NCBI GenBank assembly: GCA_001777915.1
Contig: MFFN01000003.1
Coordinates: 174,144 to 238,143, forward strand
DNA length: 64,000 nucleotides
Direction of reading: 5' to 3'
Origin: Candidatus Edwardsbacteria bacterium RifOxyA12_full_54_48
GTDB lineage: Bacteria; Edwardsbacteria; AC1; EtOH8
A program made the position numbers and the translations under genes. The notes beneath the pieces are model-generated. The model made no database searches. It saw nothing but the letters and a program-made list of their open reading frames with translations, and was not told where the DNA came from. Position 1 is the first letter of the stretch. Each line of letters starts with the position of its first letter. This document shows, piece by piece, positions 243 through 35,730 of this stretch.

Positions 243-767
243 TCAGGGGCGGCCTTCCGGCGGGGCCTTCATCTTATCCAGGATGGCCCGATGCAGAAAG
301 TGGGAGATGGTTTTGACGCTCTCTGCCACCGGCCGGCTCATGGGCACTTCCAGCTGGATCTGCCCGGCCTGGATGCCCAGGGCGATGATCCTGGCCCCGG
401 TTATCTTCTCCAGATAGTCGCCCAAAAAAGACAGCGGCATGGTATGGGTGGAGTGCATCATGGAGTGCATATCCTTATGGTTCAGAAAGGCCACCTCCCC
501 CACCGGCCGCCCCATATCGGCGGCATCTATGAATATCACCAGATCGGGTTTTGTGTTCCTGACCAGGCCGGAAAAATTCTCGGGATTGGTCCCGGCCACC
601 AGCACTTGGGCAAAACTTTCGTGATCGCAGTCCTGTAGCATCATCCGCAGTTCCCGGGCCACCAGCGAGCCGGCGGCATCGTCGCCCATCATCTCGTTGC
701 CGATGCCGAAGATCATCAGCCTGACGGAAGTTTCGACGGCCGAAGCCACCGGATCGGTCCATTCCAT
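243..767 (-). CDS. hycI: HycI-type [NiFe]-hydrogenase maturation endopeptidase
   Basis: Nickel-dependent protease that trims the C-terminal tail of the hydrogenase large subunit once the NiFe site is assembled. The family core GIGNEMMGDDAAG is near the N-terminus (residues 21-33). A second acidic residue follows in IFIDAADMG, and a histidine in MHSTHTMP matches the third nickel ligand known in HycI. Start chosen at the ATG at 767 because GGAG lies six bases upstream; an in-frame ATG at 842 would add 25 residues but has no ribosome site. It is the last gene of the hydrogenase operon. Its substrate is presumably the large subunit at 2357-3544, which retains a HycE-like tail. Confidence 0.88.
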   Translation of the reverse strand: MEWTDPVASAVETSVRLMIFGIGNEMMGDDAAGSLVARELRMMLQDCDHESFAQVLVAGTNPENFSGLVRNTKPDLVIFIDAADMGRPVGEVAFLNHKDMHSMMHSTHTMPLSFLGDYLEKITGARIIALGIQAGQIQLEVPMSRPVAESVKTISHFLHRAILDKMKAPPEGRP

Positions 768-834
768 ATTTCGCTCCAGTAAATAATTCCCGGGGAAACA
801 GCCGGTGCTCCCGAATTGCGCTGACTGATGTTGT

Positions 835-972
835 TCAGGCATCTGGCAGATCAGCTTGACTTAATGGGCTGATAAAATCCGGGCCTTGGTCTTTTTGGTG
901 TATTTCGCGGGGAAAGTTTTCTTCAGGCAATTGGTCATGCATAAAATGGCCGGACACGTAATGCCCGACCAT
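835..972 (-). CDS. Possible 45-residue ORF between the ferredoxin subunit and hycI
   Basis: The roughly 225-base gap between the operon's iron-sulfur subunit and hycI contains an ATG-started frame of 45 codons ending MVGHYV...ADLPDA. No ribosome site precedes it, and no domain, membrane span or metal motif is recognisable. Its stop overlaps the alternative upstream start of hycI. It may be chance. It is recorded because this is the longest gap in an otherwise tightly packed operon. Confidence 0.18.
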   Translation of the reverse strand: MVGHYVSGHFMHDQLPEENFPREIHQKDQGPDFISPLSQADLPDA

Positions 973-992
973 CGTTTAAACCGGCGCCGTAA

Positions 993-1373
993 TTATTTAT
1001 AAACGATCTTCAGCGCTCCGCGGTCGAAGGCGGCATCCTCGAACTCGGTATTCATGTGAATGGCCTTCTTGGGACAGACCTCGGCGCACTGGGCGCAGTG
1101 GGAACAACGGTCCAGGTAGAAGGTCATGGAGAATCTCTTGGAAACCTTGCCGGCCTCATCGGTGGTCTCGGATTCCTTGTGGATCTCCAGAGCCTCGGAG
1201 GGACAGTCCTTGACGCACATCTGGCAGCCGATGCACAGACTGGGGTCCATCACCGGATGGCCCCGAAAGCCCTTGGGCACCCCGATCTTTTGGAAAGGAT
1301 ACTGGACGGTGGCCGGTTTTTTGAACAGGTGCTTTAGCACCTCTGGCAGCATCGCTCCTAATCTTAAACTCAT
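993..1373 (-). CDS. Complex I NuoI-like / HycF-like 2x[4Fe-4S] subunit of membrane hydrogenase
   Basis: Electron-transfer subunit that would pass electrons from ferredoxin to the proximal cluster of the small subunit. It has 126 residues and two ferredoxin motifs, Cys47-50-53-57 (CIGCQMCVKDCP) and Cys90-93-96-100 (CSHCAQCAEVCP). Start set at 1373, where ATGA overlaps the stop of the NuoH-like gene; the longer frame reaching 1436 would run inside that gene. No NADH-binding NuoE/F/G-like subunits are encoded nearby, which favours ferredoxin as the donor. NuoI and the group 4 hydrogenase subunits MbhN/EchF belong to the same family. Confidence 0.87.
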   Translation of the reverse strand: MSLRLGAMLPEVLKHLFKKPATVQYPFQKIGVPKGFRGHPVMDPSLCIGCQMCVKDCPSEALEIHKESETTDEAGKVSKRFSMTFYLDRCSHCAQCAEVCPKKAIHMNTEFEDAAFDRGALKIVYK

Positions 1374-2341
1374 TGCAGATACCCCTTCAAGAATATTACG
1401 ATTACCAGCTGCAGCAGGGCCAGCGGGGCCAGCCATTTCCAGCTGAAGGAAATCATCTGGTCGATCCGGAGCCGGGCGGTCACCGCTCGCATGGCGGACA
1501 AGATGAAGACCACGATCAAGGTCTTGACAATGAACCAGATGAACCCGGGGATCAGCCCTCCCGGGAAGCCGCCCATGAACAGGGCGGCGATCATGCCTGC
1601 GCCCACCACCATCTGGATGTCGGCCAGCAGACGGAACATGGCCAGTTTGCGGCCGGAATATTCGGTAAAGGCGCCGCCCACCACCTCGGTCTCGGCATGA
1701 GGGATGTCGAACGGCACCCTCTCCAGTTTGGCCTGCAAGGTGATCACCGCCACGGCGAAGGCGAAGATGTTGATCAGCAGATGCCAGGGATTGGCCTGAT
1801 AGTAGGCGGCGATCTCAGCCATTCTCCAGCTGCCGGCCATCACCGCCGGGGACAGGATGGCCAGGAACATCGGTACTTCGTAGGCGAACAACAAGGTCAG
1901 CACCCGGACCCCGCCGATGGCGGCGTACATGCTGGCCGAGGCCCAGCCGGCCAGAAAATAGGCGAAGCTGGGAAGCGACAGCAGGTAGGCAATGACGATG
2001 ATATCCCCCTGGAAAGAGGTGGCCGACTGGAAGGTAGGGCTGAAATGCCACACCGGCAGCAGCAGCCCGGCGGTCAGCACCGAGGTCAGGGCCAGTATGG
2101 GAACGGCATTGAACAGCTTTTTATCGGCCTCCTTGGGAACGATATCCTCCTTGGCCATCAGCTTGACGAAGTCGGCGATGGGCTGCAGGATGCCGTGGCT
2201 CCCGGTATGCATGGGGCCCATCCGGTTCTGAAACTTGGCGTATAATTTCCGGTCCACCCACTCCACGAAAGTGGAATATAAGAACAGGAACAGCAGGCCA
2301 GGATAGACCAGCAGATAGAGAAATATTTTCAATATATCCAT
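1370..2341 (-). CDS. NuoH/HycD-like membrane anchor subunit of the hydrogenase
   Basis: 323-residue polytopic protein with about eight membrane spans. The family signature after the first helix is visible (EWVDRKLYAKFQNRMGP, equivalent to the ERK...RxGP segment of NuoH). So is the acidic-rich cytoplasmic loop (ERVPFDIPHAETEVVGG) that in complex I lines the quinone and first proton path. It would anchor the hydrogenase module and couple redox chemistry to ion movement. Overlaps the next gene by four bases and starts 16 bases after the large subunit stop. Confidence 0.88.
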   Translation of the reverse strand: MDILKIFLYLLVYPGLLFLFLYSTFVEWVDRKLYAKFQNRMGPMHTGSHGILQPIADFVKLMAKEDIVPKEADKKLFNAVPILALTSVLTAGLLLPVWHFSPTFQSATSFQGDIIVIAYLLSLPSFAYFLAGWASASMYAAIGGVRVLTLLFAYEVPMFLAILSPAVMAGSWRMAEIAAYYQANPWHLLINIFAFAVAVITLQAKLERVPFDIPHAETEVVGGAFTEYSGRKLAMFRLLADIQMVVGAGMIAALFMGGFPGGLIPGFIWFIVKTLIVVFILSAMRAVTARLRIDQMISFSWKWLAPLALLQLVIVIFLKGYLQ

Positions 2342-2356
2342 CTTTACCTCTTATTA

Positions 2357-3544
2357 TTATAGCTTGATTCCGCGTTTGCGGTAGAAATCTATCCCGTACT
2401 GGCGCAGGGTCTCCCAGTTCCAGACCTTCTGGTTGCCCTTGGGGTCGGTGATGATGGCCATCCGGTCGGTGCATGACAGGCAGGGATCGATGGCCGCCAT
2501 CACGATGGGGATATCGGCCACATAGCCGCCCCGAAGCATGTACAGGGTGGCCGGCCAGTTGGCCAGGGTGGGGGCCCTGACCTTCACCCGATCCGGCTTG
2601 TCGGTGCCGTTGGAGCGGATATAGTGAATGCACTCGCCCCGCTGGGCCTCGGCCCGGCTGACCACCTCGCCCTCGGGAACCTTGCGGGGGGCCTTGACCC
2701 GAATATCTCCCGCCGGAAGGTTATTGAGGATGTATTCGCAGATATTGTAAGATTCCATCAGTTCCTTGGCCCGAACCACCACCCTGGCCAGCACATCCCC
2801 GCCCTCGTCGGTGACGATATTGAAGGGAATATGCTCACCGAAACCGGCATAGGGATCATCCTGGCGGACGTCGAAATCGACCCCGGAAGCCCGGGTGGTA
2901 GGTCCGGCGGCGTTAAGCTCCAGAGCCTTGGCCTTGGGCAATAGGCCTACCCCGGCGATCCTGGCCACCAACGTCGGCTCGGTGGCGCCGATGTTCAGAT
3001 AATACGGGGTCCGGGCCTTGAGGGCGGCGATGCCGTCCAGGACCTTCTTGATCTGCATCTCGTCCAGGTCCCGGCGCACCCCGCCGAAGGTCTGCATGCC
3101 GTAGTTGACCCGGTTGCCCGAGATCATCTCCAGGATGTCCTCAACGATCTCGCGGTCCCGCCAGGTGTACATGAAGAAAGTGTCGAAGCCCACCTCGTGC
3201 CCGGCCACCCCCAGCCATAAAAGATGGGAATGGACCCGCTCCAGCTCGCCCATCAGACAGCGGATGAACAGCCCCCGTTTGGGCGGCTCGATGCCCATCA
3301 ATTTCTCCACCCCCTGGGCGAAGACGGTCATGTGGACGTTGGAGCAGATGCCGCAGACCCTTTCCAGCAGGAAAAGGTCCTGGATATACGTCCGCTCTTC
3401 GCAGCCCTTCTCTATGCCCCGGTGGTTATAGCCCAAGCGGAGATCGGCATCGACCACCGTCTCGCCATCCACCAGGAAGCGGAATGAAGTGGGCTCTTTT
3501 AAAGCCGGATGCTGCGGGCCTACTGGTAATATAAATGTGCTCAT
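2357..3544 (-). CDS. [NiFe]-hydrogenase large subunit, group 4 (NuoD/HycE C-terminal-like)
   Basis: Catalytic subunit, 395 residues. Unlike NuoD of respiratory complex I, it keeps both nickel-ligating pairs: Cys64/Cys67 in RVCGICSNVH and Cys355/Cys358 in DPCLSCTDR. Thirty-four residues follow Arg361; in E. coli HycE the protease HycI cuts at the equivalent Arg-Met bond. The 30-kDa NuoC-like domain that is fused to HycE is here a separate gene overlapping by four bases (ATGA). Expected reaction: 2 H+ + 2 reduced ferredoxin to H2, or the reverse. An Ehr-type complex without nickel is ruled out by the intact cysteines. Confidence 0.93.
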   Translation of the reverse strand: MSTFILPVGPQHPALKEPTSFRFLVDGETVVDADLRLGYNHRGIEKGCEERTYIQDLFLLERVCGICSNVHMTVFAQGVEKLMGIEPPKRGLFIRCLMGELERVHSHLLWLGVAGHEVGFDTFFMYTWRDREIVEDILEMISGNRVNYGMQTFGGVRRDLDEMQIKKVLDGIAALKARTPYYLNIGATEPTLVARIAGVGLLPKAKALELNAAGPTTRASGVDFDVRQDDPYAGFGEHIPFNIVTDEGGDVLARVVVRAKELMESYNICEYILNNLPAGDIRVKAPRKVPEGEVVSRAEAQRGECIHYIRSNGTDKPDRVKVRAPTLANWPATLYMLRGGYVADIPIVMAAIDPCLSCTDRMAIITDPKGNQKVWNWETLRQYGIDFYRKRGIKL

Positions 3545-4002
3545 TCTATGACTCCCTTCTCCCGGTTATAGTGCCAATCCTTACGCAAGGGGTAGATGCC
3601 CTGGGGCCAGTCATCGGGCAGGACCAGCGGGCGCATATCGGGATGGCCTTCAAAATTTATGCCCACCAGATCGTGGACCTCCCTTTCATAGAAAATCGCC
3701 CCGGGATAGACCGCTATGGTTGTGGGCAGCACCGGATTATTTCGATCGGTTTGGAGGCGAAGCATCAGGGCCATGCCGTTCTGGGCGAAGTGATACAGGG
3801 CCTCCAGCTTGTCCCCGGTGTCCCGGCCGGTGATGGTGGACAGATGGTAGAACCCGGCCTTCTCCTTTAGCACCCGGCAGGCCTCCACGGCATCGGCCCG
3901 GTCCACCCATAAGGTCATCCGGCGGGGGAAGGGATTGATCAGCTCTTTGATCTTGCCCTTCAGGTTTTCCTCCAGGATCTTTTTTATTTCCTCAAAGGTC
4001 AT
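3541..4002 (-). CDS. NuoC-like 30-kDa subunit of the hydrogenase
   Basis: 153 residues matching the complex I 30-kDa family. The signature ERE-x-HDLVGI-NFEGHPDMR, followed by LPDDWPQGIYPLRKD, is in the C-terminal third. It is a structural subunit that packs against the large subunit; in HycE and HyfG this domain is fused to the N-terminus of the large subunit. AGGAG lies six bases before the ATG. Upstream, in the gap to the small-subunit gene, lies a perfect five-copy heptanucleotide array. Confidence 0.9.
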   Translation of the reverse strand: MTFEEIKKILEENLKGKIKELINPFPRRMTLWVDRADAVEACRVLKEKAGFYHLSTITGRDTGDKLEALYHFAQNGMALMLRLQTDRNNPVLPTTIAVYPGAIFYEREVHDLVGINFEGHPDMRPLVLPDDWPQGIYPLRKDWHYNREKGVIE

Positions 4003-4011
4003 TTTTATCTC

Positions 4012-4046
4012 CTGTATTCTGTATTCTGTATTCTGTATTCTGTATT
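4012..4046. repeat. Five perfect tandem copies of CTGTATT (AATACAG on the coding strand)
   Basis: Direct reading gives five uninterrupted 7-base units plus a partial sixth (CTG). They lie between the small-subunit gene and the ribosome site of the NuoC-like gene. It is the most regular member of the short-period repeat family found at many places in the window. It is intergenic, so copy-number change would alter spacing in the operon mRNA rather than a protein. Confidence 0.9.
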
Positions 4047-4056
4047 CTGGGAAACG

Positions 4057-4488
4057 TCAGCCGTTCTTCAAAGCGCCCAGCAGCTTGGCCACCCCGTCGA
4101 TGATGGCATCGGGCTTGGCCGCGCAGCCGGGGATATAGGCATTGACCGGGATCACCTGGTCGACCCCCTCCAGCACGCTGTAACAACCCCGGAAAACGTT
4201 TCCGGAGCAGGCGCAGGCGCCCACCGCCACCACAAACTTGGGCTCGGCCATCTGCTCGTAGATCCTCTTCAAGCGGGCGGCCTGCTGCCTGGTCACCGCT
4301 CCGGTGCATACCAGCACGTCGGCGTGGCGGGGGGTGGATTTAAGCAGCGCCCCGAAGCGCTCCAGATCGAACCGGGGCATCAGGGCGGCCAGGGTTTCGA
4401 TGTCGCATCCGTTGCAGGCTCCGCTGTTGAAATGGAGCAGCCAGGGAGATGACACCCGGGACCATTTGACCAGTTTTTCTAAAGCCAT
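4057..4488 (-). CDS. [NiFe]-hydrogenase small subunit, group 4 (NuoB/HycG-like)
   Basis: 143 residues. It carries the proximal [4Fe-4S] cluster that delivers electrons to the NiFe site. Probable ligands are Cys25 and Cys28 (GACNGCDIE), Cys92 (VGAC) and Cys122 (IPGC). The CxxC first pair is the hydrogenase form; NuoB of respiratory complex I has adjacent cysteines at this place. It is a short version lacking the extra clusters of periplasmic hydrogenases, as expected for group 4. Confidence 0.91.
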   Translation of the reverse strand: MALEKLVKWSRVSSPWLLHFNSGACNGCDIETLAALMPRFDLERFGALLKSTPRHADVLVCTGAVTRQQAARLKRIYEQMAEPKFVVAVGACACSGNVFRGCYSVLEGVDQVIPVNAYIPGCAAKPDAIIDGVAKLLGALKNG

Positions 4489-4524
4489 AATTGTATCCTT
4501 AATATTGTAATATTACTTATTCTC

Positions 4525-4592
4525 AACCGCCAAGGCGCTAAGACACAATCACAATTATTTGGCGTCTTGGAGTCTTGGTGGTTCGGTTCACT
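4525..4592. repeat. Degenerate short-word repeat around the small-subunit / NuoA-like gap
   Basis: On the minus strand the gap reads as drifting copies of the words CCACCAAGACTCCAAGACGCCAA and, further on, CTTAGCGCCTTGGCGG. It runs to the stop codon of the NuoA-like gene. Its style (A/C-rich, period about 8-9) matches the other word repeats in the window. No gene or terminator is evident here. Confidence 0.5.
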
Positions 4593-4932
4593 TCAGGATC
4601 AGGGCGATGATGGAGAACCAGATCATCAGCAGATAGAAGATGCCCAGGATGGCGAAGGCCAGCGACCCGCCGGGGATGGTGGCGATCACCAGGGCCGCCA
4701 CGTGCATCATGGTGAAGAACAAGGCGGCATGGAAGAACTGGCGGTAGCCCACCTGAAGCTTTTTCCCCAGGAAATCCTCTCCGCAGGCATACTGGCAGAG
4801 CTTGGCGCCCTCGTCCTTCAGTTTGGGGGCCATCACGTCTCCCAGCTTGTAGATCAGGTAGGAGACCAAAGCGAAGAGGCCGAACCCGATGAACGGGGTG
4901 ATCAGTATATTCCACTGGCTGAAAATTGACAT
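4588..4932 (-). CDS. NuoA-like membrane subunit in the hydrogenase operon
   Basis: 114 residues with three predicted membrane helices (about 10-30, 65-85 and 90-112). Between helices 1 and 2 is the short cytoplasmic loop with CQYACGEDF, corresponding to the loop of NuoA that carries YxCG and, in complex I, reaches the quinone/redox interface. A full three-helix NuoA is a hallmark of complex I and is not part of the usual subunit list of Ech, Hyc or Mbh hydrogenases, which makes its presence here notable. Identification rests on topology, the loop motif and operon position. Confidence 0.75.
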   Translation of the reverse strand: MSIFSQWNILITPFIGFGLFALVSYLIYKLGDVMAPKLKDEGAKLCQYACGEDFLGKKLQVGYRQFFHAALFFTMMHVAALVIATIPGGSLAFAILGIFYLLMIWFSIIALILK

Positions 4933-4965
4933 GTTGATATCCTCGTTTATTTTTGCTTTAATATC

Positions 4966-5021
4966 TTCCCCACGAAAAACACGAAATTTTATTATTAGTT
5001 TATTTCGCGTGTTCAGCGGGT
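4966..5021. repeat. Short A-rich word repeat between NuoK-like and NuoA-like genes
   Basis: The plus strand reads CCCACGAAAAACACGAAATTTT, and its near-complement follows as TTTCGCGTGTTC, giving a loose inverted arrangement. The 96-base gap otherwise holds nothing recognisable. It belongs in style to the dispersed short-period repeats. Confidence 0.4.
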
Positions 5022-5028
5022 AAGGTTC

Positions 5029-5328
5029 CTACCCCTTCAGCCTGGTCAGGCTGCGGACGTCCAGATTCCCGGTGTTCTTATAGGCGTTGATCACCAGGGC
5101 CAGGGCCACCGCCACGATGGAGACCTCGATCACGATGAAGGTGATCACCAGGCTCTGGGAGAAGAAGGTCTCCCCCCGGGCATACCCGGCGGTGATGAAG
5201 GACAGCACCGCCGACTTGGCCATGATCTCCAGGCCGATCAGCAGTTTGATCATGTTGCGGCTGGTCAGCAGGCAGTACAGCCCGATGAAGAACAGCAGGC
5301 CGACGAATATCAGATTGATCATTACCAT
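5029..5328 (-). CDS. NuoK/MrpC-like membrane subunit
   Basis: 99 residues and three transmembrane helices. The second helix contains LIGLEIMAKS, with the buried glutamate conserved in NuoK and MrpC as part of the central proton pathway. It would link the NuoH-like anchor to the antiporter-like subunits. Its start overlaps the end of the NuoJ-like gene by seven bases. Confidence 0.86.
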   Translation of the reverse strand: MVMINLIFVGLLFFIGLYCLLTSRNMIKLLIGLEIMAKSAVLSFITAGYARGETFFSQSLVITFIVIEVSIVAVALALVINAYKNTGNLDVRSLTRLKG

Positions 5329-5855
5329 AGTTTGTGCCCTCCATCCTTGGCTTTTTCGGCCTCTATCTTATCCTGGGCGGTCAGCGGTTTCTCCCGGAAC
5401 AGGGCCAGCACCCCGAACACTCCTCCGAAGATCACCGCGATCTGCCCGATCAGGTCCATGGAGCGGATGCCCCACAGGGTGGCCCCGAAGCTTTTCTCGG
5501 CATTGCCGTATCCGGCCGGAATATTGGAGAACAGCCCCTTCATCACCAGCAGGTCGATGAGGCCGAACAGCACCAGAAACAGCGGGAACAGGTACATCGG
5601 CCAGCGTGATTCCTTCACCGCTTCCTCCGTCTTGGTCAGGGCGATGGTGGAGACGAACAGCACCGTGATCAGCCCGGCCACCACCGACAGTTCGAACACC
5701 GCGGCATAGGGCGAATCCATCCGGTACAGCACCACCGCCAGCACGGCGCTCATGAAGGCCAGGCTCAGGGCCGCCCGCAGCAGGTCCTTGAAGAACACCG
5801 CCATGCAGGCCAGACCGGCCAGCATTATCAGCAGTATAAGATTTATGACATCCAT
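5322..5855 (-). CDS. NuoJ-like membrane subunit
   Basis: 177 residues with about five hydrophobic segments. The segment ELSVVAGLITVLFVSTIAL matches the third-helix region of NuoJ and the related MbhD/MrpB modules. The C-terminal tail is charged (DKIEAEKAKDGG). Position between the NuoN-like and NuoK-like genes fits NuoJ. Whether it is closer to NuoJ or to a fused MbhD-E/MrpB cannot be settled by eye. Confidence 0.78.
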   Translation of the reverse strand: MDVINLILLIMLAGLACMAVFFKDLLRAALSLAFMSAVLAVVLYRMDSPYAAVFELSVVAGLITVLFVSTIALTKTEEAVKESRWPMYLFPLFLVLFGLIDLLVMKGLFSNIPAGYGNAEKSFGATLWGIRSMDLIGQIAVIFGGVFGVLALFREKPLTAQDKIEAEKAKDGGHKLW

Positions 5856-5908
5856 TTTGACTCCAATGTGTATATTTGAAGTTTACAATCGTCTATCAGT
5901 AACCCGAA

Positions 5909-7390
5909 CTATTGCCCGAACATTGAAAACCCGTTGGCCCCGATGGAATTGCTCAGGGCGATCATGCCCGGCTGGATCAGCTTGGCGGTGACCCAGGGGT
6001 AGAACAGGCCCACCAGCAGGCACAGGGCCGCCAGGCAGAAGGTGGCCAGGGCCATGTAGAAAGGCACTTCCTTGACCTTCTCCAAACCGGCCGCCAGCTT
6101 GCCGAAGAAGGCCTTCCGCTGCATCAGCAGGAAGTACCACAGGGTCAGGATGCTGGTGGCTATGGCGATGGCGGCCACCCCGACATGATTGGCCTCCACC
6201 AGGGCCACGATGATCAGCAGCTTGCTCCAGAAACCGTTGAAGGGCGGGATCCCGGCGATGGAGAAGGTCCCGATGGTGGTGGTCAGGCTGGTGATGGGCA
6301 TTTTATGGCCCACCCCGCCCAGCTTGGAGAGGTCCCTGGTGCCGGTGGCGTATTCGGTGGCCCCGGCGTCGAGGAACAGCAGGCTCTTGAAGGTGGCGTG
6401 GTTGAACAGGTGGAACAGGGCCCCCATGATCCCCAGCGGGGTTCCCAGCCCCAGGCCCACCACGATGTAGCCGATCTGGCTGATGGACGAATAGGCCAGC
6501 ATCCGCTTGAAATCGTTCTGGCCCAGGGCGATCAGTGCGCCGATGACCATCGAGGCCACCCCCAGCCAGATCATGGCCTGGGAGACCGAGGCCGGCAGGC
6601 CGAAGATGTCGTACACCACCCGGGTCAGGGCGTAGATGCCGGAGACCTTGATCAGCACCCCGGACAGCATGGCCGAGATGGGCGCCGGGGCCGAGGGATG
6701 GGCATCCGGCAGCCAGGCATGGAACGGCACCATGGCCGCCTTCAGGCCGAAGCCCATCAGGAACAGGGCCAGGCACAGGCCGATCAGCTTTAGGCTCATG
6801 CCGGTTCCCACCATCAGGCCCAGTTCCTTGAAGTTCATGGTGCCGGTCATCAGGTAGATGAAGGACATGGCCAGCAGGATGCCGGTGGTGGCGACTACCG
6901 ACAGCATCAGGTACTTGAAGGCCGCCTCCACCTCGTCGTGCTTCTGGCCGAAGGCCACCAAAGCGTACGAGGCCACCGCCGCCACCTCCAGGAAGACGTA
7001 CATGTTGAACAGATCGACGGTCAGCACCAGCCCGTTCATCCCGGCCACCATCAGCAGGAACAGGGCGTAGTACGATCCCTTGGCCCCGTAATGTTCCATG
7101 TAATTGATGGAATAGATGCAGGCGAACAGCGAGATCAGGCTGATGGTCAAAAGCAGCAGCAGCGAGAAGCCGTCCAGCATCAGGCCGGCCTTGAGGGGCA
7201 GGCCGATGGCCGCGGCATCCCACAGGATGCGGTGCCCGGCCGATATCAGGCGAATCTGGGACAGGCTCAGGGCCAGCAGGGCCGCCATGGTGAGCGTGCC
7301 CAGGATGTCGGGCAGTCCTTTCCACAGCCTGGAGACCAGCGGCATCAGGGCTGCCATGGCCAGGGGTATGACTATGAATAAAAGCAACAT
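5909..7390 (-). CDS. Antiporter-like subunit, NuoN/MrpD/MbhH type
   Basis: 493 residues, about 14 membrane helices. The TM5 glutamate is seen in YVFLEVAAVASYAL, the TM7-TM8 lysines in LKAAMVPFHAWLPDAHPSAP and GVLIKVSGIYAL. These are the charged residues that carry protons in the family, and the HPSAP form is typical of MrpD/MbhH. Third of three antiporter-like genes in the operon. Confidence 0.88.
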   Translation of the reverse strand: MLLLFIVIPLAMAALMPLVSRLWKGLPDILGTLTMAALLALSLSQIRLISAGHRILWDAAAIGLPLKAGLMLDGFSLLLLLTISLISLFACIYSINYMEHYGAKGSYYALFLLMVAGMNGLVLTVDLFNMYVFLEVAAVASYALVAFGQKHDEVEAAFKYLMLSVVATTGILLAMSFIYLMTGTMNFKELGLMVGTGMSLKLIGLCLALFLMGFGLKAAMVPFHAWLPDAHPSAPAPISAMLSGVLIKVSGIYALTRVVYDIFGLPASVSQAMIWLGVASMVIGALIALGQNDFKRMLAYSSISQIGYIVVGLGLGTPLGIMGALFHLFNHATFKSLLFLDAGATEYATGTRDLSKLGGVGHKMPITSLTTTIGTFSIAGIPPFNGFWSKLLIIVALVEANHVGVAAIAIATSILTLWYFLLMQRKAFFGKLAAGLEKVKEVPFYMALATFCLAALCLLVGLFYPWVTAKLIQPGMIALSNSIGANGFSMFGQ

Positions 7391-7429
7391 GTTTACAAGC
7401 TCCGCTATATTATATCAGTTGACGTATTT

Positions 7430-9310
7430 TTACTTGACCAGGACCGCCAGGTACAGCACCAGCAGGGCGAATCCGCCCACCACCCAGGCCAGATAATTGG
7501 CATACAGCCCGTTGTGGTATTCCTTGAGCACCCCGGTGGCCACCCCGCCGACGAATACGATCAGCCTCTCGTAGACGGCGTCGATCCCGCGGTCCACCAC
7601 CTTGAACACCGTCCAGGCGGCGCCTTTGAGCAGGCCGTTCACGAACCACTCGTAGATGTCGAACACCCGGGCCTCGGCCCAGTCATACAATGTATGCATC
7701 ACCGGCAGGTTGTGAATGGGCTCGGAAGCCAGGTAGGCCTGGCCCTGGCCCTTCTTGACGCCGTATTTATGAAGCAGGAAGGCTATCACCAGGCAGGCCA
7801 TGGAGACCCACACGATCCAGTTGAGGTGGAATGTCCAGAACTCCATATGCCCGGCGTGGCCCTCCAGGATGGCCCTTCCCTCCAGCACCGGCTGGATCAG
7901 GTATTTTAACGGCAGCTTGCTGTAGACCCCGAACAGGATGCAGCCCAGGGCGATCACCAGCATGGGAACGGTCATGGCTAGTCCGGGATCCTTGGGAGCC
8001 TTGTTGGGCATCTCGGGACTCTGCTGTCCGAAATAGGTGGCATGGCCCAGCTTTAAGAACGAAGCAAAGGTGAAGATGGCCCCGATCCAGGCGGCGATGG
8101 GAAATATCATGATGCCGGTCTCCACCGCCCCGTGGAACACCAGCTCCTTGGAGACGAACCCGTTGAAGGGCGGCACGCCGGAGATGGCGAAGGCCGCCAC
8201 CCAGAAGGCCACCCCGGTGATGGGCATCAATTTGAAAAGCCCGCCCAGTTTTTTCAGCTCGGTGGTGCCGGCCTGCTTCTCCACCGCCCCGCCGGTCAGG
8301 AACAGGGTGCACTTGTACATGGCGTGGTTGAGCATGTGGAACAGCCCGCCCACGATCCCGGCCGGCACCCCGGTGCCGATGCCCAGGATCATATAGCCCA
8401 CCTGGCTGATGGCGTGGAACGACAGCAGTTTCTTGTAATCCTTCTGGACCAGGGCCATCATCACCGCCAGAACGATGGTGACGGCGCCGATGGTCATCAA
8501 AAAGATGGACATGGTGCTGTTCATGTGGATGGTGAACATCTCAAGGCTGATCCGGCCCAGCATGTAGATGCCCAGCAGTTTCTCCAGGGCCGCCGGCAGG
8601 TAGGCCATGAACGGCAACGGGGCGTCGATGGCGGCATCCGGGATCCAGGTGTGGAACGGCATGGCGCCGGCCTTGGCCATGGCCCCCAGGCCCATCAGCA
8701 CGAAGGCGGCCGCCCCCAGGCCCATCGGCTCCAGGTGGATCTCGGACATGGTCAGGGTGCCGGACAGCTGCCAGGCGAAGATGATGCCCAGGATCATGGC
8801 GAAATCGGCGATGCCGGAGATCACCAAAGCCTTGGTGGCGGTCTTGAAGGCCTCCTTGTTGCCCACCGAGATCATGCCGTACAGGGTGGCCAGCAGCGAC
8901 TCCCAGAAGAACAACATCACCACGAAGTTGTTGGCCAGGATGGCCCCGTTGGCCAGTCCGGCGGTCAGCAGAAAGTAGGCGAAATATTCCTTGGAGCGGT
9001 TCTTCCCCTCCATGAAGGAGGCGGTGTACAGGGCCAGCAGGATCTCGAAGCCGGCCGCCGCCAAAAGGATGAAGCGCGGGAAATGGTAGGCCCACAGATC
9101 GAAGTTTATCCCAAAGCTGGTCCAGGGCACGAATAATCTTAAACCTTCTCCCCCGGCCTTGAAGATGACCGCCGCGTAATACATGGTGATGGCGGTGGCG
9201 ATCAGGGCCAGGATCTCCTTGCCCCATTTGACGGACTTGGGCAGGATGAAGGTCAGCACCCCGGCGATGATGGGGACCAGGATCGGTATCAGCAGAATGT
9301 TCGGATTCAT
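7430..9310 (-). CDS. Antiporter-like subunit, NuoL/HyfB-type (long form)
   Basis: 626 residues. The core transporter domain has FFWESLLATLYG (TM5 glutamate), AKAGAMPFHTWIPDAAIDAP (TM7 lysine) and AALEKLLGIYML (TM8 lysine). The C-terminal extension of about 130 residues contains further helices; in NuoL such an extension includes the lateral helix, but that cannot be confirmed here. The PFMAYLPAALEKLLGIY form resembles subunits of formate hydrogenlyase-type and other group 4 complexes. Its start overlaps the stop of the upstream gene by four bases. Confidence 0.87.
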   Translation of the reverse strand: MNPNILLIPILVPIIAGVLTFILPKSVKWGKEILALIATAITMYYAAVIFKAGGEGLRLFVPWTSFGINFDLWAYHFPRFILLAAAGFEILLALYTASFMEGKNRSKEYFAYFLLTAGLANGAILANNFVVMLFFWESLLATLYGMISVGNKEAFKTATKALVISGIADFAMILGIIFAWQLSGTLTMSEIHLEPMGLGAAAFVLMGLGAMAKAGAMPFHTWIPDAAIDAPLPFMAYLPAALEKLLGIYMLGRISLEMFTIHMNSTMSIFLMTIGAVTIVLAVMMALVQKDYKKLLSFHAISQVGYMILGIGTGVPAGIVGGLFHMLNHAMYKCTLFLTGGAVEKQAGTTELKKLGGLFKLMPITGVAFWVAAFAISGVPPFNGFVSKELVFHGAVETGIMIFPIAAWIGAIFTFASFLKLGHATYFGQQSPEMPNKAPKDPGLAMTVPMLVIALGCILFGVYSKLPLKYLIQPVLEGRAILEGHAGHMEFWTFHLNWIVWVSMACLVIAFLLHKYGVKKGQGQAYLASEPIHNLPVMHTLYDWAEARVFDIYEWFVNGLLKGAAWTVFKVVDRGIDAVYERLIVFVGGVATGVLKEYHNGLYANYLAWVVGGFALLVLYLAVLVK

Positions 9311-10776
9311 CTCAATACCCCCAATATATCATGAATGGCAGGATTTCCCAGAACGTCGCGGACGGCGATGTTGACCAGGTCCATGGGGTACTTGACCAGG
9401 ATCCCGGCGGCCAGCGAAAGGACGGCCAGCGAGGCCACCACCCACACCATGGTCGGAGTCCCCTCTTTATGGGCATGGATGCTGTGGTCCCGGGCCTCGC
9501 CCAGAAAGACCAGGGTGAACAGCCGCATCAGATAGACCAGGGTCAGCACCGCGGTGAAGATGGCCAGGGCGCCGATGGCGATGTGGTTGGACTTGATGAT
9601 GCCCTGGATCACCATGAATTTGGAGAAGAAGCCTCCGAAGGGCGGCACCCCCACGATGGAGAAGACGCACATGATGAAGGCCACCGCGGTGATGGGCATG
9701 GCCTTGATCAGCCCGCCCATCTTGGTGATGTCCTTGGTGCCGGTGCCGTGCTCGATGACCCCGGCGGCCAAAAAGAGGCCGCCCTTGGCCAGCCCGTGCA
9801 TCAGGATGAACAGCAGGGCCCCGGCCACCCCGATGGTGTTGAAGGCCGCCAGGCCCATGAAGATGTAGCCGATCTGGCTGACGGTGGACAGGGCCAGGAT
9901 CCTCTTGATGTTGGTTTCTATCAGGGCCGCGCTGGCCGAGACCATGGCCGAGATCAGGCCCAGGATCATCAGGTAGGTCTGCCAGTCGCCGGGGATGACG
10001 AAGGTGTAGTTGAATATCCGGGCGAAGGCGTAGACCCCGATCTTGACCAGCACCGCGGCGTGGAGCAGGGCGGTCACCGGGGTGGGCGCCACGCCGGCGT
10101 CAGGCAGCCAGGTGTGGAACGGCAGAGTGGCGCTCTTGGCGAAGATGCCCATGGTGATCAGGGCCACCGCCAGGCCGCCGATGGGGAAGCCCCGCATATC
10201 CAGCATGTTGAAGGTACCGGTCTTGGCGTAGACCAGGGCGAAACCCAGCAGCATGAACACCGCCCCCCCGGCCGTGACCAAAAAGGCCTTGTCGGCCTTG
10301 ATCACCACTTCCCTGTCGCGGAAGAAGCCGATCAGGCGCCAGGAGCAGATGCCGGTGATCTCCCAGAAGACGTACATCAGGATCATGTTGGCCGAGAACA
10401 CCAGGCCCATCATGGCCCCCAAAAACAAAACCACCATCAGAAAGTATTCCTGCTGATAGTGGTAATCCTTGATATAACCCAGCGAGTAGATGATGATCAG
10501 GGTGCTGATCAGGGACGAGGCGATGGCCATGAAGACCGACAGCCCGTCCACCACGAAGGTGGCATCCACTCCCAGACCGATGGCCCGCTGGAAGACGTGG
10601 GTCTCCCCCGAGAAGGCCGCCGGCAATAGTGTGACGGCAAAAAAAGTAGTGGCCAGCCCCAGAATCACCGCCCAGGCATTGCGCCCTGGCTTGGAGGCCA
10701 GCCCTATCAAAGGCAAGGTAAAGGCCCCGATGATAGGGACCAGTATCGTTGCCAGCAAAGAGAATTCCCACCCCAT
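9307..10776 (-). CDS. Antiporter-like subunit, NuoM/NuoL/MrpA-N type; first gene of hydrogenase operon
   Basis: 489 residues, about 14 membrane helices. It has YVFWEITGICSWRLIGF (TM5 glutamate), FAKSATLPFHTWLPDAGVAP (TM7 lysine) and LHAAVLVKIGVYAFAR (TM8 lysine), all intact. AGGAG sits five bases before the ATG. The preceding 170 bases hold palindromes rather than an obvious sigma-70 or sigma-54 promoter. Together with the genes at 7430 and 5909 this gives the complex three pumping modules, as in complex I; Ech and formate hydrogenlyase 1 have fewer. Confidence 0.88.
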   Translation of the reverse strand: MGWEFSLLATILVPIIGAFTLPLIGLASKPGRNAWAVILGLATTFFAVTLLPAAFSGETHVFQRAIGLGVDATFVVDGLSVFMAIASSLISTLIIIYSLGYIKDYHYQQEYFLMVVLFLGAMMGLVFSANMILMYVFWEITGICSWRLIGFFRDREVVIKADKAFLVTAGGAVFMLLGFALVYAKTGTFNMLDMRGFPIGGLAVALITMGIFAKSATLPFHTWLPDAGVAPTPVTALLHAAVLVKIGVYAFARIFNYTFVIPGDWQTYLMILGLISAMVSASAALIETNIKRILALSTVSQIGYIFMGLAAFNTIGVAGALLFILMHGLAKGGLFLAAGVIEHGTGTKDITKMGGLIKAMPITAVAFIMCVFSIVGVPPFGGFFSKFMVIQGIIKSNHIAIGALAIFTAVLTLVYLMRLFTLVFLGEARDHSIHAHKEGTPTMVWVVASLAVLSLAAGILVKYPMDLVNIAVRDVLGNPAIHDILGVLR

Positions 10777-12624: not shown

Positions 12625-12653
12625 ATTATACGGCCTCCTTAAAATCCATGGAA

Positions 12654-12682
12654 ATAATAACACGTTAAATATGAATTGTCAA
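12654..12682 (-). promoter_or_regulatory. Sigma-70-type promoter of hicBA
   Basis: -35 TTGACA (12677-12682), 17-base spacer, -10 TATTAT (12654-12659), about 30 bases upstream of hicB. The -35 directly follows the T-rich tail of the terminator at 12683-12710. Confidence 0.8.
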
Positions 12683-22189: not shown

Positions 22190-22239
22190 TTTTATATTCC
22201 TTGAATAAATAGTTCTGTATTACTGATAAGCAAAACCAG

Positions 22240-30069: not shown

Positions 30070-31083
30070 TCAGCAGATCCGCGGCAGGGCCTCTCCCTCC
30101 AGCATCATCAGCGGGCGCCTGCTGCCCAGAAAGGTCTTCAGCAGCACCTGGGGCTTGCCGGATTCGACCTGGCCGATGATGGCCGCCTCCCTGCCCAGCG
30201 GGTCCTGGCGCATGGCCTTCAGGATGCCTTCGGCCTCCCCGCCGGGCACGATGGCGATCAGCTTGCCCTCGTTGGCCACGTACAGCGGATCCAGCCCCAG
30301 CATCTCGCAGGCGCCTTTGACCTCCGGTTTGACCGGTATCTTTTCCTCTTCTATGGCAATGGCAACCTTTGATTGCCGAGAGATCTCATTGAGGGTGGTG
30401 GCCAGGCCGCCCCGGGTGGGGTCGCGCAGAACGTGGATGCTCCCCGCCTTCAGCAACGATGACACCAGTCCATTAAGGGAAGCCACGTCGCTAAAAAGAT
30501 CGCCGCTCAGGCCGAAATTATTCCGGGCGTTTATCACCGCCGTACCGTGATCGCCCACCGAACCGCTGATGATCACCGCGTCCCCCGGTGCGGCTAAAGC
30601 TCCGGAGACATTGACGCCCTCCGGTATCTCCCCCACCCCGGAGGTATTGATGAACAGACCGTCGCAGGCGCCCTTGTCCACTACTTTGGTATCCCCGGTG
30701 ACTATGGATACCCCTGCCTCTTTGGCGGCAAGGGCCATGGAATCGACCACCTTCTCCAGGGTTTCCAGGGAAAGGCCCTCTTCGATGATGAAGCCAACTG
30801 AAAGATACAATGGCCTGGCGCCCTTCATGGCCAAGTCGTTGACGGTGCCGCACACCGCCAGCCGCCCGATGTCCCCGCCGGGAAAGAACAGCGGTTTGAC
30901 CACATAGGTATCGGTAGTGAATGCAATTCTGCATTTTTCATTTTGCAGTTTGCATTCCGCCGCATCATCCCCCTGGTCCAGCATCGGATTGGAGAACCGG
31001 GACTTGAAGACCTTCTCTATCAATTCGTGTGAAAGCCGCCCGCCGGAGCCGTGGGCCAGCAGTATTTTATTTGATGTTTCCAT
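30070..31083 (-). CDS. hypE: Hydrogenase maturation factor HypE
   Basis: 337 residues. HypE dehydrates the carbamoyl group on its C-terminal cysteine to make the cyanide ligand of the NiFe site. The C-terminus is PRIC, with the required last cysteine. N-terminal LLAHGSGGRLSHELI and the ATP-binding VLRDPTRGGLATTLNEI are present. Residues about 43-52 (ECKLQNEKCR) are encoded by a short-period repeat in frame, in a surface-loop position. Confidence 0.96.
   Translation of the reverse strand: METSNKILLAHGSGGRLSHELIEKVFKSRFSNPMLDQGDDAAECKLQNEKCRIAFTTDTYVVKPLFFPGGDIGRLAVCGTVNDLAMKGARPLYLSVGFIIEEGLSLETLEKVVDSMALAAKEAGVSIVTGDTKVVDKGACDGLFINTSGVGEIPEGVNVSGALAAPGDAVIISGSVGDHGTAVINARNNFGLSGDLFSDVASLNGLVSSLLKAGSIHVLRDPTRGGLATTLNEISRQSKVAIAIEEEKIPVKPEVKGACEMLGLDPLYVANEGKLIAIVPGGEAEGILKAMRQDPLGREAAIIGQVESGKPQVLLKTFLGSRRPLMMLEGEALPRIC
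30922..30960. repeat. In-frame heptamer repeat inside hypE
   Basis: Minus strand reads GCAAACT, GCAAAAT, GAAAAAT, GCAGAAT in succession (period 7). It encodes ECKLQNEKCR and slightly lengthens the loop before IAFTTDTYVV compared with the usual HypE spacing. Confidence 0.65.
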
Positions 31084-31585: not shown

Positions 31586-32689
31586 TTAATTCCCCGTCCC
31601 ATACTTGTACCAGGCAGCGCAGGCCCCCTCAGAGGACACCATGCAGGGCCCCACCGGGCTTTCCGGCGTGCATTTCTTCCCGAACATCGGACATTCATCC
31701 GGCTGATTTAACCCCATCATCACCTGCCCGCAGATGCACCCTTGGGGTTCTATGGCCGGAGGAACTTCGACCTCAAATCGTTTTGAGGCGTCGAAGGAAC
31801 TGTATTCATCCCTGAAGCAAAGCCCGGTCTCCGGTATGTTTCCAATGGCCCGCCATTCGGCGGTGCAGGGCATCATGACTTTATCTATCATCGATAGGGC
31901 ATGGGGATTCCCTGCATCGGGCACTCCCCGCCGGTATTCGGTCTGCACGGAGAAAGCCGAGCCGTCTTTTTTATGCGCTTTGATCTGTTCCAACAGCATC
32001 ACGATCGACTCCAGTATGTCCAGCGGCTCGAACCCGGCGATGACGCAGGGGATCTGGTATTGAGTCGGGATGAATTGATACGGATGGACGCCGATGATGG
32101 CCGAAACATGGCCAGGGCAGAGGAACCCGTCTATCCTGGTCTGACCCGATTCCAGTATGGCTTTCAGGGCATGGGGCACGGTTTTGAAGGCCGGATAGAC
32201 CGAAAAATTCCCAATGCCCTTCTCTTTTGCATCCAGCACCGTGGCTATGATGGTGGGCGATGTGGTCTCGAAACCCACCCCGGCGAAGACCACCTGTTTT
32301 TGCGGGTTTTCAACCGCTATCTGCAGGGCGTCCAGCGGGGAATACAGTATCCTGACATCGGCACCCTGGGACTTGGCTTCCCTTAGACTGGAATGTGAAC
32401 CGGGAACCCGGATCATGTCGCCGAAGGTGGTGAAGATCACGTCCTTCTGTTCGGCGATGGCGATCATCCTGTCTATATCGGACAAGGCGGTGACGCATAC
32501 CGGACAGCCCGGCCCGGAAAGCAACTTTATGGATTTGGGGATCAGTCCCCTGATGCCGAACTGGGAGATGGCCATGGTATGGGTGCCGCAGACCTCCATG
32601 AAGGCCGCCGGGCCGTCGCAAAGGGCTTCGATCCTCTTGACCAGCTTGGCGGCCACCGCCGGATCGCGGAATTTATCGAGATCGATCAT
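31586..32689 (-). CDS. hypD: Hydrogenase maturation factor HypD
   Basis: 367 residues. Iron-sulfur scaffold that, with HypC, assembles Fe(CN)2CO. Contains MEVCGTHTMAISQFGIRGL, LLSGPGCPVCVT (active-site cysteines) and the C-terminal cluster-binding cysteines (CICGQVMMG...CPMFGKKC...GPCMVSSEGAC). Starts 12 bases after hypC. Confidence 0.97.
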   Translation of the reverse strand: MIDLDKFRDPAVAAKLVKRIEALCDGPAAFMEVCGTHTMAISQFGIRGLIPKSIKLLSGPGCPVCVTALSDIDRMIAIAEQKDVIFTTFGDMIRVPGSHSSLREAKSQGADVRILYSPLDALQIAVENPQKQVVFAGVGFETTSPTIIATVLDAKEKGIGNFSVYPAFKTVPHALKAILESGQTRIDGFLCPGHVSAIIGVHPYQFIPTQYQIPCVIAGFEPLDILESIVMLLEQIKAHKKDGSAFSVQTEYRRGVPDAGNPHALSMIDKVMMPCTAEWRAIGNIPETGLCFRDEYSSFDASKRFEVEVPPAIEPQGCICGQVMMGLNQPDECPMFGKKCTPESPVGPCMVSSEGACAAWYKYGTGN

Positions 32690-32701: not shown

Positions 32702-32923
32702 TCAGGATATGGTGATGCCGGTGTCTTCCAGCAGCTGGTAGGTTTCCTCGGCCTCCTCCGGATCGATCCGCTGGATGGCGAACCCGGCGTGGACCAGCAC
32801 GAATTCGCCCACCTTGGCGTCGGGCATCAGTTGCAGGCCGATCTTTCTTTTAAGGCCCCGGATGTCCACCTCGGCCTTGGTGCCTTCGATGGTTTCGATC
32901 TTTGCTGGTATGGCTAAACACAT
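32702..32923 (-). CDS. hypC: Hydrogenase maturation chaperone HypC
   Basis: 73 residues starting MCLAIPAKI. The conserved N-terminal Cys2 binds the iron precursor and the large subunit. VGEFVLVHAGFAIQRID is the family core. It would serve the hydrogenase large subunit at 2357-3544, the only hydrogenase in the window. Confidence 0.96.
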   Translation of the reverse strand: MCLAIPAKIETIEGTKAEVDIRGLKRKIGLQLMPDAKVGEFVLVHAGFAIQRIDPEEAEETYQLLEDTGITIS

Positions 32924-33384: not shown

Positions 33385-33432
33385 TTTACTTCTATCATTT
33401 TCAATCCACTATTTTCGATTTCCTGTTTTCTA
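33385..33432. repeat. Heptamer repeat between hypF and the four-helix-bundle gene
   Basis: Minus strand units AAAATAG, AAAACAG, GAAATCG, AAAATAG, TGGATTG, AAAATGA (period 7). The hypF stop codon TAG is formed by the first unit, so the repeat defines the end of HypF. Confidence 0.72.
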
Positions 33433-35730
33433 TTTTAAAAAGGAGGCAAGCACCTGTCCCAATGCAATTCCCCCGTCATTTGCCGGGACCTGCCGGTGCG
33501 CCAGAACATCATATCCTTTCCGCTGCAAGCCCTGTGAAATCGCCGTTAAAAGGAAGCGGTTCTGGAATACCCCGCCGGAAAGGGCCACTGTTTTGATGCC
33601 GGTTTTTGACCTCAAATTATCGCACATCAGCAAAGTAAAGTCAACGATTGTATTATGGAACTTGGCCGAGCAAACCCCGGCATTTTTTCCCGCCAGGATA
33701 TCGTCAGACAGCTGTTTCCACAGGTTTTTCACCGACACTAAGGTCATCCCATTTATTTCAGCCAAATCAAACCCATATCTTTCTTTGATCCCTGAAGCCA
33801 GGCAGTTCTCCAGTGCCATGGCCGCCTGGGCCTCGAAAGTAATGCTCCGGCAGACGCCTAAAAGAGCGCTGACCGCATCGAACAGTCGCCCCAGGCTGGA
33901 CGTCCAGGCCAGATTAAAGCCGTTCTCCAGTTGTTTGGCTATCACCTCCAGCTCCGCTGGGCTATCTTTGGGCATCAGTTTTACGGGAATCTGGTTGAGA
34001 AGATATTTGCTATAGGCGGCGGCGATCCGGTAGGGTTTTTTTATTGAAATCTCCCCGCCCGGCAGGGGCAGATATTCCAAATGTCCCGCCCTTTCGATGT
34101 TTATGCCGTCGAAGACAAAGAACTCCCCGCCCCAGATCTTTCCGTCCTGGCCGTAGCCGGTCCCGTCGAAGGCCACGCCGATGGCCGGTATGACCTTCCC
34201 GTTATCGGCCAGGGTGCTTAAGATATGGGCCTTTTGATGCTGAATGGCACGCACAGACACCCCGGCTTGCTCCTTGGCCCATTTGGTGGTCAGGTAATCG
34301 GGGTGCAGGTCGTGGACGATAATTCCCGGTTTTATCTTGAACCACCTCTGGTATTTATCCACCATTTCTTCGAAGAATTCCAGGGTGGCAGCGTTGTCCA
34401 TCTCGCCGATATGCTGGCTGACATAGGCCTTATCGCCAGAGGCCAGGCAAAAGACATTCTTCATCTCCCCTCCCACCGCCAGGGTGGGCGGCACCGGGAC
34501 CGGGAGATTGATGGGATTGGGGGCGTAGCCCCTGGAATGCCGGACTATCTGGAAATTCCCGGCCTGGGTGTCCCCGGCCGCGGTCCAGAAAACTATGGAA
34601 TCGTCGTTTCGATTCTCGATCTCCCGATCATTTAACAAAAAATGATCCGCGATCTCCGCCAGTTGGTCCAAAGCCTCCCGATTGCCGATAACGACCGGTT
34701 CATCCTGGATATTGCCAGAGGTCATCACTAATGCCACGAATCCGGGGGATATTTTTTTCAGATCTTTGAATAAAAGATGATGAACCGGGGCATAGGGCAG
34801 CATCACCCCCAGATAATCATTTCCCGGGGCCACTTTATCCGATAGTCTTCCCGGTTTCCTGTTTCCCATTTCCGATTTTCTAAGCAGGGTTATCGGCGCC
34901 TGGCTTGACATCAGCACCTTCGCCTCCTGGTTGTTCACTTCGCAGATGGCCCGCACATCATCCAATGACCCGCACATCAGGGCCAGCGGTTTGTCCGGCC
35001 GGTTCTTTCCGTCTCGAAGTTTTTTGACGGCCGAATCACTTCCGGCATCGCAGGCCAGATGAAGCCCGCCGATCCCCTTGATGGCCAGGATCTCCCCGGC
35101 TAACAGCAGCCTGGCCGTTTTGTCAACGGCCCCATCCGCTTCGGCAATCATACTTCCATCGCTGCCGCACAGCCGTACTTTAGGCCCGCAGTCCGGGCAG
35201 GCATTGGGTTGAGCATGAAACCTGCGGTTCTCGGGGTCATCATATTCCTTTAGACATTTGGGGCACATAACAAAGGCCGACATGGTTGTAAAAGGCCGGT
35301 CGTAGGGAGTGTTCTTTATGATGGAGAACCTGGGGCCGCAGTTGGTGCAGTTGATGAAGGGGTATTCGTGGCGGCGATCGGTCGGATCCAGCATCTCCCT
35401 CCGGCAGTCGTCGCATAAGGAAATGTCCGGGGAGAGCCGGGTATTGCCTCCGCCGCCAAGGCTCTCCCGGATGGTGAAGTCGGAATAGTCCCCCGGAACT
35501 GCCTCGGTAACGGAAATTTGATCGATGGAGGCCTGAGGCGGCAGTTCCCGCGGGATGTCCGTCAAAAAAGCATCGACCCCGGACGATTGGCCCTGGGTCA
35601 ATATCTCCACCCCCCGGCTGGAATTGAGCACCCAGCCAGAAAGACGGTGGCGTTTTGCCAGCCGGTAGATATAGGGCCGGAATCCCACCCCCTGGACTAT
35701 GCCGTTGATTATTACTTTTACTGTTCTCAT
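33430..35730 (-). CDS. hypF: Carbamoyltransferase HypF
   Basis: 766 residues, full length. N-terminal acylphosphatase domain (VIINGIVQGVGFRPYIYRLA), two zinc fingers (CDDCRREML...CTNCG; CPKCLKEY...CPDCG), YrdC-like ATP domain, and Kae1-like C-terminal domain (VALSGGVFQNRFLL). It uses carbamoyl phosphate to load HypE. First gene of the hyp cluster. No ribosome site is obvious before the ATG at 35730. Residues about 285-291 (SEMGNRK) come from an in-frame repeat tract. Confidence 0.96.
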   Translation of the reverse strand: MRTVKVIINGIVQGVGFRPYIYRLAKRHRLSGWVLNSSRGVEILTQGQSSGVDAFLTDIPRELPPQASIDQISVTEAVPGDYSDFTIRESLGGGGNTRLSPDISLCDDCRREMLDPTDRRHEYPFINCTNCGPRFSIIKNTPYDRPFTTMSAFVMCPKCLKEYDDPENRRFHAQPNACPDCGPKVRLCGSDGSMIAEADGAVDKTARLLLAGEILAIKGIGGLHLACDAGSDSAVKKLRDGKNRPDKPLALMCGSLDDVRAICEVNNQEAKVLMSSQAPITLLRKSEMGNRKPGRLSDKVAPGNDYLGVMLPYAPVHHLLFKDLKKISPGFVALVMTSGNIQDEPVVIGNREALDQLAEIADHFLLNDREIENRNDDSIVFWTAAGDTQAGNFQIVRHSRGYAPNPINLPVPVPPTLAVGGEMKNVFCLASGDKAYVSQHIGEMDNAATLEFFEEMVDKYQRWFKIKPGIIVHDLHPDYLTTKWAKEQAGVSVRAIQHQKAHILSTLADNGKVIPAIGVAFDGTGYGQDGKIWGGEFFVFDGINIERAGHLEYLPLPGGEISIKKPYRIAAAYSKYLLNQIPVKLMPKDSPAELEVIAKQLENGFNLAWTSSLGRLFDAVSALLGVCRSITFEAQAAMALENCLASGIKERYGFDLAEINGMTLVSVKNLWKQLSDDILAGKNAGVCSAKFHNTIVDFTLLMCDNLRSKTGIKTVALSGGVFQNRFLLTAISQGLQRKGYDVLAHRQVPANDGGIALGQVLASFLK
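34849..34882. repeat. In-frame repeat tract inside hypF
   Basis: Minus strand GAAAATCGGAAATGGGAAAC then AGGAAACC; units of about 7 bases built on GGAAAnn. It encodes KSEMGNRKPG between the conserved ITLLR and VAPGNDYLGVMLPY blocks of the YrdC-like region. Confidence 0.6.

Follow-up and report, generated by a model that had tools for sequence, protein, structure and literature searches.

The 64,000 nucleotides analysed here (the window: contig MFFN01000003.1, positions 174,144 to 238,143 of the forward strand, from Candidatus Edwardsbacteria bacterium RifOxyA12_full_54_48) carry an operon that probably encodes a bacterial energy-converting [NiFe] hydrogenase similar to complex I and to the archaeal Hfo, that is, an ion pump that would be fed by ferredoxin and would evolve H2. 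The operon is made up of twelve collinear open reading frames on the minus strand at 243-10776, with short gaps or overlaps between genes, all of them present where a first-pass annotation of this DNA had placed them, and it codes for a core like NuoABCDHIJK, for three antiporter-like subunits and for a protease of HycI type, in the order antiporter-antiporter-antiporter-J-K-A-B-C-D-H-I-HycI (10776 down to 243). This order is not due to chance, since loci of many phyla share it. The genes are as follows:

9307..10776 (-), AntM, antiporter-like subunit 1, 489 amino acids (aa), NuoL/MrpA side; Pfam Proton_antipo_M/N
7430..9310 (-), AntL, antiporter-like subunit 2, 626 aa; long C-terminal helix and last transmembrane helix as in NuoL
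5909..7390 (-), AntN, antiporter-like subunit 3, 493 aa, MbhH/MrpD-like; best phmmer match MbhH, 261 bits
5322..5855 (-), NuoJ-like subunit (J), 177 aa; sequence like fused MbhD and MbhE
5029..5328 (-), NuoK-like subunit (K), 99 aa; Oxidored_q2 1.8e-22
4588..4932 (-), NuoA-like subunit (A), 114 aa; identified by family profile
4057..4488 (-), NuoB-like small subunit (B), 143 aa; Oxidored_q6, above the NCBIfam NuoB subfamily cut-offs
3541..4002 (-), NuoC-like subunit (C), 153 aa; Complex1_30kDa 2.3e-33
2357..3544 (-), NuoD-like [NiFe] large subunit (D), 395 aa; Complex1_49kDa and NiFeSe_Hases
1370..2341 (-), NuoH-like subunit (H), 323 aa; NADHdh 9.2e-89
993..1436 (-), NuoI-like subunit (I); Fer4 matches, two 4Fe-4S motifs
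243..842 (-), HycI-type maturation protease; PF01750 2e-13

For I and HycI the annotation probably places the start too far upstream; as read from the sequence, starts near 1373 and near 716, respectively, are likelier. Pfam Proton_antipo_M is matched by all three antiporter-like genes, and the remaining matches in the operon are to Oxidored_q3, Oxidored_q2, Oxidored_q6, Complex1_30kDa, Complex1_49kDa together with NiFeSe_Hases, NADHdh, 4Fe-4S and HycI. Among the twelve genes there is neither a NuoE/F/G nor an MbhABC(F) Na+ module (MrpEFG-like).

The catalytic core retains what is needed to recognize a group 4 [NiFe] hydrogenase: the L1 and L2 motifs with four nickel-binding cysteines, and membrane subunits homologous to NuoH and to the antiporters. 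In D, L1 reads RVCGICSNVH and L2 reads DPCLSCTDR, and the nickel ligands are C64, C67, C355 and C358, at the very positions from which the first-pass annotation had proposed a genuine [NiFe] site; its E17 aligns with E21 of MbhL, and this residue and the L1/L2 nickel ligands are invariant across the family (counted here as large subunits of at least 51% identity). After DPCLSCTDR there is a 34-residue C-terminal extension that resembles the tail of HycE, which is cleaved by HycI, and a tail after the second motif is kept in the family along with all four ligands. The quinone-site residues H38 and Y87 of Nqo4 align with K16 and G65 of D, that is, the quinone residues are absent. The best single match of D in the PDB is the Mbh of Pyrococcus furiosus (6cfw, 302 bits), with HycE at 297 bits, and its best NCBIfam models are NuoD/FpoD. 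The small subunit B carries cysteines at C25xxC28, C92 and C122, which confirms the CxxC pair earlier read in it, and I has two CxxCxxCxxxCP motifs, at 68 and 111.

The trees of the core are unrooted and have long complex I branches, they were sampled without, by name, archaeal Hfo, Ech, Eha/Ehb and CooH sequences, and the groups tested in them were named after the first tree had been seen. Within this sampling, the tree of B-C-D-H (1024 columns, with fewer rows than the D tree) splits the family together with complex I from the other sampled hydrogenases with a support of 100/98, while in the D-only tree the family is sister to NuoD/FpoD/NdhH/MBS (92/88). The grouping of complex I with Mbh-like enzymes was rejected in the B-C-D-H tree (p 1e-4), as was that of complex I with Hyc (p 7e-4), and the D-only tree rejected complex I with Mbh (p 0.023); the core was not found to cluster with Mbh. 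A catalytic core nearer to complex I than to the Mbh/Hyc-type hydrogenases sampled is supported by these trees, in agreement with the earlier suggestion that the operon stands close to the supposed link between hydrogenases and complex I.

The membrane arm is a more composite matter. A alone gives no Pfam or NCBIfam match at the default cut-off, but PF00507 matches 17 of the 20 family members, the window copy lying below the cut-off at E 0.0024; the best 25 matches of the family profile in the PDB are ND3/NuoA chains, MbhI is not among the profile matches, and with E. coli NuoA as query the A family comes straight after the genuine NuoA proteins. The AlphaFold2 model of A is poor (predicted template modelling score 0.40), and its four Foldseek matches, none of them significant, are all NuoA/ND3/NdhC chains. 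The assignment of this gene as NuoA-like in the first-pass annotation is therefore borne out by the profile search, although the window copy by itself would fall short, and NuoA-like genes occur across the whole family. In the sampled A members the position of NuoA Asp79 is occupied by an invariant His and that of Glu81 by Ala, Val, Thr or Gly. J, which matches Oxidored_q3 above the Pfam cut-off and MbhD just below it, is indeed a homologue of NuoJ, as had been proposed, but its profile is nearer to MbhD (4e-10, vs 3e-5 for NuoJ) and has an MbhE/MrpB match at the C-terminus. The NuoK-like identity of K is clear from its Oxidored_q2 match, and K keeps Glu34 and Glu68 (the latter by eye, the automatic alignment being shifted there).

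The Glu/Lys/Lys pump residues are kept in all three antiporter-like subunits (E139, K214 and K386 in AntM; E137, K213 and K388 in AntL; E135, K217 and K390 in AntN). In a tree of these subunits with those of NuoL/M/N, Fpo, Hyc/Hyf, Mrp and Mbh, AntM groups with NuoL, MrpA and HyfD (95/93), AntL forms its own clade on the NuoL/MrpA side (98/94), and AntN groups with MrpD (95/80). The grouping of AntN with NuoN was rejected by the approximately unbiased test (p = 0.03), and naming by best hidden Markov model, which gave a misleading mix of Nuo, Hyf and Mrp names, was replaced by the tree. The AlphaFold2 model of AntL (mean predicted local distance difference test, pLDDT, 78) has a 47-residue helix at 552-598 followed by a last transmembrane helix at 603-625, and its full-length Foldseek matches are to NdhF/NuoL chains. 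On the evidence of the tree, then, the antiporters are two of NuoL/MrpA type and one of MrpD type, with no one-to-one orthologues of NuoL/M/N, and the arm therefore has the parts count of complex I and not its orthologues. Of the full membrane arm of complex I that had been claimed, the A-, J- and K-like and the three antiporter-like subunits stand, while the labels L/M, L and N do not hold as orthology.

When the operon is compared with known systems, Mbh of Pyrococcus furiosus (group 4d, 6cfw) shares with it the order B-C-D-H-I, which is the Mbh gene order, an MbhH-like antiporter, an MbhD/E-like J and the best PDB match of D, but the operon has a NuoA-like gene and three antiporter-like subunits, lacks an MrpE/F/G-like part, and its core is nearer to complex I. 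With formate hydrogenlyase and Hyf (group 4a) it shares the likeness of D and its tail to HycE, although it has neither a formate dehydrogenase nor a fused C-D, and does have A, J and K genes. With complex I, Fpo and NDH-1 it shares the set of A-D and H-K homologues, three antiporter-like subunits and the grouping of the core; unlike them it keeps the nickel ligands, has no quinone residues, N-module or NuoA acidic residues, and its antiporters are not orthologous.

The closest precedents are archaeal. Loh, Herve and Brune (2021; PMC7886697) described Hfo, an 11-subunit Fpo-like [NiFe] hydrogenase of Bathyarchaeia which, in their view, links more closely to complex I than Mbh does, as well as the 4g-6 complexes of Pyrodictium and Methanomethylicus. 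Like the operon, Hfo has eleven Fpo/Nuo homologues (A-D, H-N) without a donor module, intact L1/L2, no MbhABCF module, and a large subunit near the respiratory complexes; by its published description it differs in that the operon is bacterial, the antiporters, J and K precede A-B-C-D-H-I, HycI comes last, and the window antiporters are not L/M/N orthologues. The Fpo gene order (A-B-C-D-H-I-J-K-antiporters) is permuted here, for which reason we call the operon Hfo-like and not Hfo. A 2024 paper that finds HydDB group 4g polyphyletic (PMC11291895) has also described, in Asgard archaea (Freyarchaeia, Atabeyarchaeia), a group 4 [NiFe] hydrogenase that resembles complex I. Its [NiFe] core, a membrane arm like that of complex I and an L-like subunit carrying a lateral helix are features it shares with the operon, but at most eight Nuo-like genes and two antiporters are reported for it, grouped with genes for Hdr and ATP synthase, whereas the Edwardsbacteria operon has twelve genes, three antiporters and no such neighbours. 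Since both were already known, the operon is a bacterial variant of a described kind, and the earlier view of its subunit set as unprecedented is not supported. The proposal had been made to depend on the large subunit not falling inside an Mbh or Hyf group for which the same set was already described: the set is indeed described, in archaea, but the family lies inside neither Mbh nor Hyf. Group 4g enzymes have been reported in Elusimicrobiota, Omnitrophota and Cloacimonadota, with no such subunit analysis in the available parts of the reports (PMC11257099, PMC8542988), and no report of the bacterial family as a complex I-like set was found in the open-access literature. What appears to be new here, judging by the loci compared, is the bacterial family itself, the conservation of its gene order across seven or more phyla, and an antiporter set different from that of complex I.

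The family is present in all ten Edwardsbacteria genomes (one as a contig-end fragment), in 27 of 297 genomes of the Aminicenantes/Acidobacteria phylum, in 34 of 149 of the Elusimicrobia phylum, in 3 of 61 of a Symbiobacterium-like class and in 5 of 243 of the Methanomassiliicoccus phylum (Thermoplasmatota), as well as on named WOR-3, Riflebacteria and Bipolaricaulota contigs; the nearest named contigs have a large subunit 96-98% identical to D. A plasmid search gave only relatives of at most 46% identity, most among the matches listed being annotated as HycE/HyfG or hydrogenase large subunit. Most bacterial loci have the gene order of the operon, and two variants stand apart from it. The order in the Symbiobacterium-like class is J-K-L-M-N-A-B-C-D-H-I-HycI. 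In one locus of this class, L051, L groups with NuoL (100/98), M with NuoM (100/97) and N with NuoN (100/98), and by best match L179, and in part L180, resemble its set of L/M/N orthologues; in the loci of Thermoplasmatota the antiporters are of L and N type only.

The host genome (2.7 Mb) contains five POR_N genes, of the ferredoxin-dependent 2-oxoacid oxidoreductase type, and a RnfC-like and a NuoF-like protein (names inferred from length and a partial match). Neither CdhC, nor an [FeFe] hydrogenase, nor NuoD was found in this genome, where the large-subunit search gives only the D of the operon and a HycE-like protein. This inventory would fit a fermentation in which ferredoxin is disposed of as H2. 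Genes for [NiFe] cofactor maturation lie outside the operon, some 20-25 kb away in the same window:

30070..31083 (-), HypE-like, AIRS domains
31586..32689 (-), HypD, [NiFe] cofactor maturation; PF01924 4.2e-146
32702..32923 (-), HypC; PF01455 3.5e-27
33430..35730 (-), HypF

Several other observations concern this gene complement. The window has 2-oxoacid:ferredoxin oxidoreductase-type genes at 21266-23404 (a thiamine pyrophosphate-binding subunit at 21266-22189 and a POR_N match at about 22733-23404). Elsewhere in the genome, a second group 4 cluster (L147, 4611-20000; G000:C4:536001-556000) includes HycI, HyfB-like, fused HycE-like (42% to D), HycD-like and HyfF-like genes, after which comes a molybdopterin oxidoreductase that has an Fe4S4 domain, and is formate hydrogenlyase-like; a third [NiFe] hydrogenase (L146, 9039-17694; G000:C4:118001-138000) adjoins HdrA-like and CCG-domain (HdrB-like) genes and resembles the Mvh/Hdr sets of group 3c. 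Small proteins that look alike (F..L..WQ, of four-helix-bundle type by eye) are found in the hyp cluster (window 32943-33362) and in the second hydrogenase cluster (L147, 9671-10081 and 12970-13368). Two small overlapping genes at 12197-12663 of the window resemble, by eye, a HicA/HicB toxin-antitoxin pair.

A ferredoxin-fed, H2-evolving pump is the best reading of the operon because of the five 2-oxoacid oxidoreductase-type genes and because NuoD, CdhC and [FeFe] hydrogenase were not found; its ferredoxin-oxidising, H2-evolving direction is a reasonable inference from the gene content. In an assembled complex of this kind, the oxidation of 2-oxoacids would yield reduced ferredoxin, whose electrons would enter at the NuoI-like subunit, pass through its two clusters and then that of the NuoB-like subunit, and arrive at the Ni-Fe site in the NuoD-like one, there reducing protons to H2; the H-, A-, J- and K-like subunits would couple this reaction at the membrane face to the three antiporter-like subunits, which would move H+ or Na+ outward. 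Some points weigh against this interpretation: (i) the D-only tree is weaker than the four-protein one and stays compatible with complex I plus Hyc (p 0.11); (ii) the acidic membrane residues Asp79 and Glu81 of NuoA are lost in A, where His77 and Ala79 replace them; (iii) by calculation, with ferredoxin at -420 to -500 mV and 1-10 Pa H2, a pump moving four ions per two electrons (three pump units and the E-channel) would reach equilibrium at about 60-120 mV and would stall above it. With so small an energy drop from ferredoxin to H2, fewer ions moved, or reverse operation, are real possibilities.

The same enzyme could mainly oxidize H2 and consume an ion gradient as a ferredoxin reductase, as has been proposed for Hfo in acetogenic Bathyarchaeia (PMC7886697), a precedent to which are added the above arithmetic, provided that the enzyme pumps at as high a ratio as complex I does, and a membrane-bound H+ (or Na+) pyrophosphatase in the window (57414-59498, PF03030, E 6e-275) that could energize the membrane. 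We think this rather unlikely, as no CdhC was found, so that by this marker there is no Wood-Ljungdahl sink for ferredoxin, and five genes of the ferredoxin-reducing 2-oxoacid oxidoreductase type call for an outlet. It is very improbable that the enzyme is a conventional Mbh-type (group 4d) hydrogenase with an Mrp-like module, the likeness of its membrane arm to complex I being convergent or trivial: AntN is closest to MbhH/MrpD, J to MbhD plus MbhE, and B-C-D-H-I are ordered as in Mbh, but the NuoA-like gene is family-wide and has no MbhI among its profile matches, the operon holds no further Mrp genes, and the core tree places the family with complex I and rejects complex I with Mbh-like enzymes. 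Finally, a hydrogenase-related complex of the Ehr/Mbx type, having lost its hydrogenase activity, would account for NuoD/FpoD being the best NCBIfam models of D, yet it is scarcely credible in a family that has kept its nickel ligands, with no loss of the Ehr/Mbx kind, and the tail after the second motif, and where HycI and the Hyp genes are present.

A further proposal can be made, which we hold tentatively and with more doubt than confidence: that among living lineages the family is the nearest sister of the complex I-type enzymes as a whole, that it keeps an H2-evolving precursor state, and that it shows an arm built by antiporter swapping, with L and N in Thermoplasmatota, orthologous L, M and N in the Symbiobacterium-like class, and three antiporters of Mrp type in Edwardsbacteria and the majority of other bacteria. 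The route from hydrogenase to complex I is a long-standing question, and a family that combines a Ni-Fe site and a NuoA-like subunit with antiporter sets that vary would offer natural intermediates, widespread in bacteria, with which one may ask whether nickel was lost earlier or later than the L-M-N arm arose, and whether the number of pumps follows the small difference in energy between ferredoxin and H2.

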